Source: Bacteroidota bacterium (GTDB taxonomy: Bacteria > Bacteroidota > Ignavibacteria > Kapaibacteriales > NICIL-2). Taken from it: DNA of 60,924 nt. The position numbers were made by a program, and so were the translations under genes. Below are positions 29,019-32,392 of this stretch, one piece after another. How positions within the stretch are numbered: position 1 is the stretch's first letter; each line of letters starts with the position of its first letter. Location: NCBI GenBank assembly GCA_019695345.1, contig JAIBAE010000019.1, forward strand, positions 1 to 60,924, given 5' to 3'. The notes beneath the pieces are model-generated. The model was not told the DNA's origin. It worked only from the letters and a program-made list of their open reading frames with translations, and searched no databases.

Positions 29019-29492
29019 GTTACCCGCCTCTGCCGTCGCAACCCGCAAGCGCGCCAACCCTGTGCGAACCGAACGTTCTACTTCGCAGTTAATCACGAAT
29101 TACGTGATGTTAAACAGATATGATATAATACTGTAGATAATAACCCCATGCTTTAGCGTGGGGATTTCAAACCTACAACATCCCCTCGGGACTTTAGTCC
29201 TGAGTAGTTGCAGGGCTAAAGCCCATTAGTACTTAGGTGCTTGTTTCTCCGCGCTAAAGCGGCGGAGTTATTGGGATACTGTGGATTTGTTACATTTGTT
29301 GTAATAAGTATTGTGTATTCATACATCAATGTAGTATTACATCAACGCAATCGTAGCGAGGCATCGCGTCGCTACGATTACAGTAATCTGTAATTCGTAG
29401 TTAAGAAGTCATTCGTACTTAACTGCGAAGCACAAGGAACGGTTCCGCCCGGGTGACGGCGCAGGCGGCGCGTTTCGGCAGAGGCGGGAACC
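29019..29492. repeat. B-B inverted doublet with nested hairpin cluster
   Basis: Forward B 29019-29092 (GGTTACCCGCCTCTGCCGTC ... CTTCGCAGTTAA) and reverse B 29420-29492 (TTAACTGCGAAG ... GGCAGAGGCGGGAACC). The outer and inner ends are both inverted with respect to each other. Between them are four CTTTAG/CTAAAG hairpins and a GAGGCATCGCGTCGCTACGA segment also found in the 161-bp array. Confidence 0.8.
29144..29266. repeat. Cluster of four hairpins with TTTAG/CTAAA loops
   Basis: CCCCATGCTTTAGCGTGGGG (29144-29163), CTCGGGACTTTAGTCCTGAG (29185-29204), GGGCTAAAGCCC (29213-29224), and CTCCGCGCTAAAGCGGCGGAG (29247-29267). Stems differ in sequence but all share the same loop core; the first two have TTTAG and the last two its complement, so the cluster is symmetric. 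Confidence 0.8.
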
Positions 29493-29577
29493 CACAAAAA
29501 ATAACCCACAGTATTTTTTTCGGTATTGCATAATTTGTTTGAAACAAAAGCAACAGAGCTAAGTCAGTCGGTTACGT

Positions 29578-30135
29578 ATGAGCAATACTCCATCTACATA
29601 CACGGATTTTGAACTTTACATGCAGTTATCTGCGGCACATTCCCGCGAGTCTGCATTTAAGGAGTTATACCGCAGGTACGAACAACGCGTGTGGGCGTAT
29701 TGTTGGGTATCGTTGCATAACGAGGATAAATCGAAGGATATAATTCAGGAAGCGTTTTTCCGGTTTTACAAGGCAGGTGAGAAAGGTGTTGCTGTTGATA
29801 ATGTTCCGGCGTACCTGATGCGGATTGTACGCAACCTTGTGATTGATGAACACCGTAAATCCGACCGACAGTTTGTTGATATTGACGATATAGATATTCC
29901 TGCTCCGGCAGATGGCTACGAACAGCGCGAGATGAATGCAATTATTGAAACCGCATTGCAGTTGCTTCCGGCAGAGTATAAAGATGCCCTTATTATGCAA
30001 ACGTACAGCGATATGAGTTACAACGAAATTGCCGAGGTACAAAACGTTCCGCTTACAACCGTGCGGAACAGAATTGTTAGGGCTAAAGCACGTATGCGCG
30101 AGATTCTCTCGGTGTACATTAACAACGGCGAGTAA
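29578..30135 (+). CDS. ECF-type RNA polymerase sigma factor
   Basis: 185 residues. Region 2: FKELYRRYEQRVWAYCWVSL ... KDIIQEAFFRFYKA (conserved QExF core). Region 4: IIETALQLLPAEYKDALIMQ ... SDMSYNEIAEVQNVPLTTVR, the helix-turn-helix contacting the -35 element. Directly followed (2 bp) by a membrane protein with an anti-sigma-like N-terminus. The pair probably forms a signalling module. The gene sits beside the large repeat region 28.9-29.5 kb. Confidence 0.93.
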   Translation: MSNTPSTYTDFELYMQLSAAHSRESAFKELYRRYEQRVWAYCWVSLHNEDKSKDIIQEAFFRFYKAGEKGVAVDNVPAYLMRIVRNLVIDEHRKSDRQFVDIDDIDIPAPADGYEQREMNAIIETALQLLPAEYKDALIMQTYSDMSYNEIAEVQNVPLTTVRNRIVRAKARMREILSVYINNGE

Positions 30136-30137
30136 GT

Positions 30138-31388
30138 ATGAATACACAGAATAATTATAGCGACCTGATTCAACTATTTCTGGATGGCGAATGTACAGAG
30201 GTAGAAAGCAGTGTGTTGTTTTCGGAAATGAGTAAGAATCCGCAACTGCAAGCAGAGTTTCAGCAAGCCGCGCAGTTTGGCGTGTTAATGCGCTCGCAAC
30301 AACAAATGGTAAAACCTCCGGTGGATTTATCGGGCATGGTTATGGGTAAAGTTGGGTTGGCTACAACAGCGGCTGTTGCTACATCTGTGTTTAGCATTGG
30401 TAAGACTTTATCGGCGTTGGGATTGGTATCGTTGGGCGTGGTATCGGCAGTTGTTGCGTTACGGTTTATACCCAATACGCCAAGTCAGCCACAAGTGCAA
30501 CAAGTTGCCCAACAACCGCAAGTAACGCCACCCGTTCAATCAGAGCAACACACAAACACTACAACCGAGCAACAACCTAAGCAAGTTATTAAGTACGTGT
30601 ATATTCAGCAACCTTTGCAACAACCGCTACAACAGCAAACCGTTCAACATCAGCCGGTTGTTACAGAGCAGCCTATTGTTGAAGCTCATTCTGATACGGA
30701 ACACGAACCTACTATTGCAGAAGCACCAACATCGTTGCAAGAAACACCAAACACAACAACCGAAGTTATGCAGTTTGCACCAACCATGGTGTACGGGTTT
30801 CAGAGTTTGCAACAACAACCACAGCCACGGTATGTATCGCCGGTTGTAGCACATTTGGATGTTGTGATTTCACCGCCCGAAGGACACAGCAGTTGGTTTT
30901 CTCCGCGGTATATTTCGCTTAGATCGGCTGTACCGATTGGAAAGTTGTTAAGTCAGGCAAGTATCGAAACCGGGGATAGAATTTTCTCGCTGCAATGGCC
31001 AATATCGCCAACCGGAAGTTTTGGTATTGAGTTAGGCAGGGCTTATTTACCAACGTATGCAGTTATTTCACAGGATAACATCAAAACATTTGTAAAGGAA
31101 GATTATATCGGGTGGTTTTCGCTTTCGATGCGCGAAGACGGCAGACCGGAATTTTTACAGTCAATAACTCCAAACGATGACAAGTTCCGCTGGACCGGTG
31201 AACTTTCTATTGGGTTAAGCAATGCAGGTATTATTACCAAAGCGGAAACGTATGCAACGTATAACATCTTTAACTCTATTTCTGTTTCGGCAGGACCCAC
31301 TGCCATCATTCAATTTCTGAACAACCAAGGGAACGCGCAAGTAGCTACACGCTTTGCCTTGATGTTTGGTGCCGGTTACGAATTTTAA
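30138..31388 (+). CDS. Putative trans-envelope anti-sigma factor with C-terminal beta domain
   Basis: 416 residues. Residues 1-60 (NYSDLIQLFLDGECTEVESS ... EMSKNPQLQAEFQQA) resemble the cytoplasmic anti-sigma helix bundle common in Bacteroidota, without the zinc-binding HxxxCxxC. One transmembrane helix at ~88-110. Residues ~111-230 are Gln/Pro/Thr/Val-rich and likely disordered. Residues ~236-416 are strand-rich with alternating patterns (RIFSLQWPISPTGSFGIELG, FRWTGELSIGLSNAG, ISVSAGPTAII, RFALMFGAGYEF) and end in Phe like an outer-membrane barrel of about eight strands. Seen: order of parts and C-terminal F. Inferred: sigma-factor sequestration and outer-membrane contact. Confidence 0.72.
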   Translation: MNTQNNYSDLIQLFLDGECTEVESSVLFSEMSKNPQLQAEFQQAAQFGVLMRSQQQMVKPPVDLSGMVMGKVGLATTAAVATSVFSIGKTLSALGLVSLGVVSAVVALRFIPNTPSQPQVQQVAQQPQVTPPVQSEQHTNTTTEQQPKQVIKYVYIQQPLQQPLQQQTVQHQPVVTEQPIVEAHSDTEHEPTIAEAPTSLQETPNTTTEVMQFAPTMVYGFQSLQQQPQPRYVSPVVAHLDVVISPPEGHSSWFSPRYISLRSAVPIGKLLSQASIETGDRIFSLQWPISPTGSFGIELGRAYLPTYAVISQDNIKTFVKEDYIGWFSLSMREDGRPEFLQSITPNDDKFRWTGELSIGLSNAGIITKAETYATYNIFNSISVSAGPTAIIQFLNNQGNAQVATRFALMFGAGYEF

Positions 31389-31406: not shown

Positions 31407-32219
31407 ATGAAAACACATCTTGCATTAGCATTATGCACAGTCGCGCTGTTGCTTCATTCATGTTCAAATCACACACTCGAACCAACCTACGATTGCGAAC
31501 TACCAACACTCGGTAATGCAACTGTTGGAACATACGGAGTATATCTCCATACAAATCTCGATTCGTTGGGTAATGTAGTAACAGGTATTGAAACCTACGA
31601 TACATTAACAATAATAAGTAAGTCTATAGCAAGCGATAACACGTTAACACTTGGCATTCAAGACCGTTTCTCTACCGACTTTGGCACAACATGGCGCACC
31701 GATACAATTACGTGGGTGATAACGGGAAATCAGTTTAAGGTACAAAACCACTGGCTGCAACAACAATGTACTTGTTTCGATGGATTATTGAAATATAGAA
31801 TCTACGATGACTGTTCATCCAACTCGACGATAATTGCAGATAATAAAACAGTAGCAGGCGATATCTTACCATCACTTGTACGCGATAACATGGGAAATCA
31901 GACCATAGTAAATACAACAACCAATGCAACAATATCTAACCTTTGTACAGCAAAGTATAACGAGAACATCATGCTTGGAACTCGTAAAATGCTTACTAAA
32001 AAATCCGAGTCTAACATTTCTTTTACGTACAGATTGCTGGAGCCGCAGGCAGCAACATTTGTTAACGGTAAGCGCACTTCAACTGTTACCGATAACTGCC
32101 ACGTGTGGGTAAACCACGAAGTAGGCCTGATAAAAGAACGAGTTATGGTTACAGAAGATACCCCCAACCCACACAACCTGTATTTTGAACGTGTAATGGT
32201 TCAGTATATAACAAAGTAA
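31407..32219 (+). CDS. Lipoprotein of unknown function, third gene of the sigma operon
   Basis: 270 residues, 18 bp after the preceding stop. N-terminal signal MKTHLALALCTVALLLHSC with a Cys at 19 (weak lipobox LHSC). The remainder is strand-rich and Thr/Asn-rich with several Cys (DCELPT, QQQCTCFDGL, DDCSSN, SNLCTAKYN, DNCHVWVN). No domain recognised. Its position suggests it functions with the sigma/anti-sigma pair, perhaps as an envelope sensor partner; that is inference. Confidence 0.7.
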   Translation: MKTHLALALCTVALLLHSCSNHTLEPTYDCELPTLGNATVGTYGVYLHTNLDSLGNVVTGIETYDTLTIISKSIASDNTLTLGIQDRFSTDFGTTWRTDTITWVITGNQFKVQNHWLQQQCTCFDGLLKYRIYDDCSSNSTIIADNKTVAGDILPSLVRDNMGNQTIVNTTTNATISNLCTAKYNENIMLGTRKMLTKKSESNISFTYRLLEPQAATFVNGKRTSTVTDNCHVWVNHEVGLIKERVMVTEDTPNPHNLYFERVMVQYITK

Positions 32220-32392
32220 TCTGTTACTCGCTTCTGCCGAAGCAACCCGCAAGCGCGCCAACCCTGTGCGAACCAATCGTTCTGCCTCGCAGTTAATTAC
32301 GGATTACAATATCATTGATTCGCGAAGCAGGAGGAACGGCTCCGCCCGGGTGACGGCGCACAAGGGTTGCTACGTCAAAACAAGGGGAACCA
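32220..32392. repeat. B-B inverted doublet
   Basis: Forward B (GTTACTCGCTTCTGCCGAAG ... GCGCGCCAACCCTGTGCG) and reverse B (GCGAAGCAGGAGGAACGG ... GCGCACAAGGGTTGCTACG ... GGGGAACC) separated by ~20 bp. The gap 32220-32567 otherwise shows a -7-like TATTTTTG at 32406-32413 for the tolC gene. Confidence 0.8.

Follow-up and report, generated by a model that had tools for sequence, protein, structure and literature searches.

The window analysed here, the whole 60,924-nt stretch of contig JAIBAE010000019.1, contains three closely spaced forward-strand open reading frames (ORFs) between positions 29578 and 32219, which lie as an earlier note on this DNA had placed them: an ECF sigma factor of 185 aa (29578-30135; Pfam Sigma70_r2, E=4e-12, and Sigma70_r4_2, E=3e-14), followed after a spacer of only 2 bp by a protein of 416 aa with an ATG start (30138-31388), and then by a lipoprotein of 270 aa (31407-32219), recognised by a lipobox in its sequence (LHSC, within LLLHSC). 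That the second gene is a full-length fusion is supported by a family alignment, an AF2 model and nine copies in the source genome. Searches above cut-off found no Pfam domain in the 416-aa protein or the 270-aa lipoprotein, nor any NCBIfam family for either, and placed the sigma factor in no named NCBIfam subfamily, the general ECF model being its only match. For this locus and its relatives we computed domain make-up, predicted fold, gene pairing, conservation across the order, linkage to lipoproteins and motif enrichment.

Upstream of the sigma gene lies a putative ECF-type promoter (29540-29565, forward strand), composed of TGAAAC at 29540-29545, a spacer of 17 nt and GTC at 29563-29565, with the first start codon just ~13 nt past the GTC. 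Among hexamers upstream of sigma genes that accompany the 416-aa protein and its relatives (hereafter the family), TGAAAC ranks first, occurring in 12 of 30 regions against 1.7 expected from dinucleotide shuffles, a count equal to the maximum that a single hexamer attained over 200 shuffle rounds; a search for spaced pairs in the promoters of these genes gave nothing above shuffles. The TGAAAC-N17-GTC type looks as ECF promoters usually do, which suggests, from the DNA sequence, that the sigma operon may be autoregulated. The surrounding DNA also carries repeats. A GC-rich intergenic repeat (GGAACGGYTCCGCCCGGGTGACGGCGCA) is present on both flanks of the three genes (29436-29463 and 32333-32360), and its core, allowing up to two mismatches, has 69 copies in the genome versus 0 for a reversed control pattern, some of them close to further cassette copies (C50, C100). 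Also intergenic and upstream of the sigma gene is a near-perfect 14-nt inverted repeat with a 3-nt loop (AATCGTAGCGAGGC / GCGTCGCTACGATT; 29349-29379).

The first 83 residues of the 416-aa protein (30138-30386) can be assigned to the class I anti-sigma domains (ASDI), in keeping with the anti-sigma-like N-terminus that the earlier note had read from the sequence. In an AF2 model built from a 34-sequence family alignment, helices span residues 7-15, 21-33 and 35-57, forming a three-helix bundle (7-57, pLDDT mostly >95), and a further helix follows at 62-72; this corresponds to the plan by which ASDI are defined, namely a three-helix bundle, a linker and a fourth helix (PMC7406223). A sequence relationship was found in addition, as a profile of residues 1-78 compared with the PDB has RsiW (E=6.8e-5), RseA (E=0.0022) and DdvA (E=0.014) as its top three matches, those to RsiW and RseA covering positions 5-71. 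Domains of this class adjoin only 6% of Bacteroidetes ECFs (PMC7406223). ASDI contact their cognate ECF at sigma4 through helix 1 and at sigma2 through helix 4. In a joined model of sigma and anti-sigma, made from a paralogous pair by reading through the stop, the domains are well folded (pLDDT 89.7), but their relative placement is of low confidence, with a pTM of only 0.50; among the structure matches listed for it, sigma chains fill the list and no anti-sigma chain appears.

The comparison with RseA/sigma-E and RsiW/SigW thus extends to a homologous N-terminal domain, by profile search, and to a single transmembrane helix. However, RseA and RsiW, whose sigma factors are released by regulated proteolysis, end in the periplasm or outside the cell, with neither a long tether nor an outer-membrane barrel. 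The earlier note had named FecR-like anti-sigma factors as a related idea, yet the FecR domain has no Pfam match in the window protein and is absent from the families listed for 34 members, while the N-terminus resembles RsiW and RseA; an origin from FecR-like factors was consequently rejected. What is shared with FecR/FecA/FecI is that information from an outer-membrane barrel reaches, or in our case would reach, an ECF sigma factor, whereas in that system a TonB-dependent receptor, a protein of its own, supplies the barrel.

The anti-sigma domain is followed by a transmembrane helix (residues 92-109, 30411-30464; an AF2 helix of low pLDDT, with a hydropathy of 2.21 over 19 residues), and then by a disordered Gln/Pro/Thr-rich tether, predicted to be periplasmic (residues 110-250, 30465-30887; pLDDT <50). 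Such a tether had been proposed at a length of ~120 residues; its existence stands, and its actual length in the AF2 model is somewhat greater, ~140 residues. Across 37 family members the tether measures 88-185 aa (median 129). By our own estimate, the contour length is ~46 nm for 129 residues and ~32 nm for the shortest tether of 88, and a periplasm of 20-25 nm would be crossed only if the tether were stretched well past a relaxed coil. Since stretching would be needed, tension, or a failure of barrel insertion, could itself be the signal, although this is speculative.

Beyond the tether, residues 258-416 (30909-31385) form a predicted 8-stranded beta-barrel of outer-membrane type, so that the single polypeptide envisaged in the earlier note, in which an anti-sigma domain is joined through one transmembrane helix and a long tether to a C-terminal domain of outer-membrane type, is what the predictions return. 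In the AF2 model eight strands between residues 258 and 415 (pLDDT mostly 80-97) make a closed barrel, whose structural matches (VIA, Z 13.3-14.0) are the OprF N-domain (Z 14.0, 4rlc), NspA (Z 13.7, 1p4t), PagL and OmpA, with 1qjp at Z 12.5. Such a fold could also be read as a soluble barrel in the periplasm that resembles avidin or lipocalins and binds a small molecule, and avidin chains do align with the model (Z ~10). We regard this as very improbable, given that outer-membrane barrels align better (Z 13-14), that hydrophobic residues lie on the same face as the terminal aromatic residue, and that the C-terminus carries a conserved signal. This candidate Bam-type beta-signal, MFGAGYEF (31362-31385), has G at -6, Y at -3 and F at -1, and the last strand alternates strictly between hydrophobic and polar residues; in the C-termini of the family (n=37), F or L occupies -1 in 28 and G occupies -6 in 23, and position -3 is hydrophobic in most members. 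An avidin-like domain or soluble sandwich is accordingly disfavoured, the outer-membrane barrels having the higher scores.

The architecture is widespread in the order to which the source genome belongs (Kapabacteria). Nine full-length copies of the fusion are dispersed among the contigs of the source genome, and, of 119 genomes sampled from the order, 116 have the family, each with 1 to at least 15 matches (scoring went up to 15); recurrence on this scale puts the fusion far beyond chance. Many genomes of the order hold five to fifteen parallel copies. An ECF sigma gene lies directly upstream in all 38 copies examined (gaps of -14 to 214 nt), and so the pairing of sigma and fusion proposed for the window is conserved among homologues. 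Family members are 358-461 aa long and share ~20% identity with the window protein, having in common an N-terminal LxDGExxxxExxxLFxxL, the transmembrane helix, the tether and a strand-rich C-terminal domain in which certain Gly and aromatic residues are conserved. A search of genome contigs with the window protein as a single sequence produced no match; with a subset of the alignment, the close relatives named were MAGs that carry the labels Chlorobiota or Candidatus Kapabacteria/Kapaibacterium. In the NCBI taxonomy, Kapaibacteriota is given as a synonym of Bacteroidota (taxid 976). In the phylum sample outside the order, most matches are to the N-terminal part only, many of them in short ORFs, with the exception of one related family of the class (G235), which has a full-length match; this suggests that the fusion may have been built from an ordinary anti-sigma factor. 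Within the family, one copy (L015, G030:C33) has a normal N-terminus and upstream sigma gene, ends after 187 residues and has no barrel sequence beyond, and by its sequence is a natural variant without a barrel.

The earlier note knew of no described system with this architecture; however, the same architecture has been published, both for Phocaeicola vulgatus (PMC9308784) and for the Dma family of dual membrane-spanning anti-sigma factors in Bacteroides thetaiotaomicron (Pardue et al. 2024, as cited in PMC13088901). According to the account in PMC13088901, Dma proteins consist of an anti-sigma domain, a transmembrane helix, a long disordered tether and a C-terminal beta-barrel, their partners are ECF21 sigma factors (Das), and they control vesicle production. 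The Kapabacteria protein has the same domain order and an adjoining cognate ECF sigma gene, and dma2 is likewise described there as part of a three-gene operon. In Phocaeicola vulgatus, M0N98_03760/03761 includes an 'unusual' anti-sigma factor that is predicted to cross the periplasm and to carry an outer-membrane barrel; the pair responds to an envelope-damaging, membrane-targeting toxin, on exposure to which the sigma gene rises 33-fold and genes for NigD lipoproteins are strongly induced (PMC9308784, 2022). A similar pair, EcfO, exists in Bacteroides fragilis (PMC9308784).

These precedents also bear on a reading in which the linker is cut once the barrel has assembled in the outer membrane, so that one gene would yield two products that work apart, an anti-sigma factor and a small porin-like protein, both of an ordinary kind. 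A long disordered Gln/Pro-rich tether should indeed be accessible to proteases. Nevertheless, we think this explanation improbable, as the fusion is kept in nearly all members and the tether is never shorter than 88 aa, neither of which separate halves would need, and as Dma domains are reported in PMC13088901 to reach from the outer membrane to the cytosol.

For comparison with the Bacteroidia we assembled a reference set by architecture from genomes of the phylum, fetching natural sequences with a probe modelled on the typical N-terminus, which served for that purpose alone; the set is of Bacteroidia type and is not B. thetaiotaomicron Dma1/Dma2 itself. A sigma gene lies directly upstream in all of the 20 regions checked, and most of the proteins have a barrel-like C-terminal sequence.

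The third gene sets the Kapabacteria loci apart. Counting a downstream ORF when it starts within 320 nt of a family copy (54 copies), 42 of 54 are lipoprotein-like, while other ORFs of these regions are lipoprotein-like in 11 of 206 cases (Fisher p=2e-27, a value that is only indicative because related copies are not independent), and the three-gene order seen in the window is therefore found far above chance. With the same detector, only 1 of 13 ORFs downstream of Bacteroidia-type genes is lipoprotein-like (by eye, about 4 of 20 regions). The lipoprotein is consequently a regular partner of the barrel-ended anti-sigma factor in the order, and some family copies have no adjoining lipoprotein gene. 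With the Phocaeicola and EcfO pairs, both from Bacteroidales, the response induces NigD-like lipoproteins, whereas in Kapabacteria a lipoprotein gene is what usually lies next downstream. The cassette lipoproteins split into many unrelated clusters, their mature parts containing ASH/HYDIN Ig-like, DUF4397, META or I-set/Ig domains, or none that was recognised, and about half of them carry a motif directly after the lipid-anchored cysteine, C-x-[SN]-P-[LIV]-D-x-D-x-P-R (CxSPLDxDxPR), with D at +5 in 23 of 42 and R at +10 in 21 of 42. The lipoprotein of the window has the lipobox but not the motif after the cysteine, and none of the other cassette lipoproteins is detectably related to it. At four Bacteroidia-type loci (L150, L152, L164 and L168) the next gene is a lipoprotein-like ORF of ~430 aa, perhaps a partner common to them.

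We consider it likely that the three genes form an envelope-sensing cassette, in which the sigma factor is held by a dual-membrane anti-sigma factor and released on a signal from the outer membrane. In such a mechanism, the class I domain would bind the ECF sigma factor and keep it inactive at the inner membrane, while the remainder of the protein would pass the inner membrane once, extend through the periplasm as a disordered tether and end in an 8-stranded barrel inserted into the outer membrane by Bam. The trigger would arise at the outer membrane, for instance when barrel assembly goes wrong, when the membrane is damaged, or through a ligand or a change in which the third-gene lipoprotein takes part. 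It would expose the tether or the inner-membrane segment to proteases, with a site-1 cut followed by the action of an RseP-type site-2 protease, and the freed sigma factor would then transcribe its regulon, its own operon included, from promoters of the TGAAAC-N17-GTC type. The genome does encode a member of Peptidase_M50, the site-2 protease family, but its presence is weak evidence because such proteins are nearly universal. By analogy, the logic of this mechanism would have precedents in the Dma/Das pairs, as PMC13088901 presents them, and in the toxin-responsive pair of Phocaeicola (PMC9308784).

Whether the Kapabacteria proteins share this architecture with Dma by descent can be addressed by comparing the two halves and their sigma partners. 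A profile of the Kapabacteria anti-sigma part aligned with that of the Bacteroidia-type reference set (not Dma1/2) gives an hhalign probability of 0.8%; moreover, while the former matches RsiW and RseA, the Bacteroidia-type profile finds no anti-sigma match in the PDB, and its anti-sigma part is much shorter before the membrane. The Bacteroidia-type protein occurs in 0 of 61 genomes of the Kapabacteria order against 37 of 148 in a phylum-wide sample where, among the matches listed, none is in the class of the window. We also built a tree from the sigma partners of both groups and 16 further ECFs that the genome encodes. The partners of the family cluster there as one clade (97/91), apart from those 16, and a second clade (100/97) unites the Bacteroidia-type partners. 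All of these differences tell against a diverged Dma member, one that would share a fused ancestor with the Bacteroides proteins and whose anti-sigma half would have changed past recognition. The identical domain order within one phylum and the ECF partner directly upstream in both groups would fit common descent, as would a weak match over 40-50 columns between the barrel profiles, of a kind that any outer-membrane barrels might show; on balance we find this origin unlikely. The anti-sigma parts, which show no detectable homology, and the separate sigma clades argue instead for an independently assembled variant, and the Kapabacteria fusion was probably put together on its own from an RsiW/RseA-type anti-sigma domain. 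Convergence is favoured rather than proved, because the reference set stands in for Dma1/Dma2 and sequences that diverge fast can lose all trace of homology. Given these differences we do not file the Kapabacteria protein as a Dma member, but as one that would work like Dma.

The architecture itself is therefore already known, and what is new is apparently an independent, order-wide and multi-copy version of it, with at least 15 copies in some genomes and a lipoprotein as the usual third gene, along with the shared post-cysteine motif of the lipoproteins and the ECF-like TGAAAC element upstream. More tentatively, dual membrane-spanning control of sigma factors may have evolved at least twice in Bacteroidota, once in Kapabacteria from an RsiW/RseA-type domain. 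There it may have become a modular set of sensors working in parallel, where every anti-sigma factor with a barrel would have an exchangeable lipoprotein of its own that reads or gates it and docks by the shared motif just after the lipid anchor. If true, physical wiring of a sigma factor to the outer membrane would have been reached more than once and would not be peculiar to Bacteroides, a second, sequence-unrelated set would be available for asking what dual-membrane anti-sigma factors sense, and the lipoproteins, in which one short motif precedes varied domains (Ig-like, META, DUF4397), would offer a direct handle on the signal.

The sigma tree also contains groupings among the other ECFs of the source genome. 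Four of these (L176, L184, L193 and L194) form a clade (100/99). Directly behind each lies an ORF of ~440-460 aa or more whose N-terminus shows another pattern; these ORFs may encode an additional type of anti-sigma factor. Another, L191 (G000:C148), groups with the Bacteroidia-type partner sigma factors (90/86), and the reading frame next to it is only ~99 residues long.
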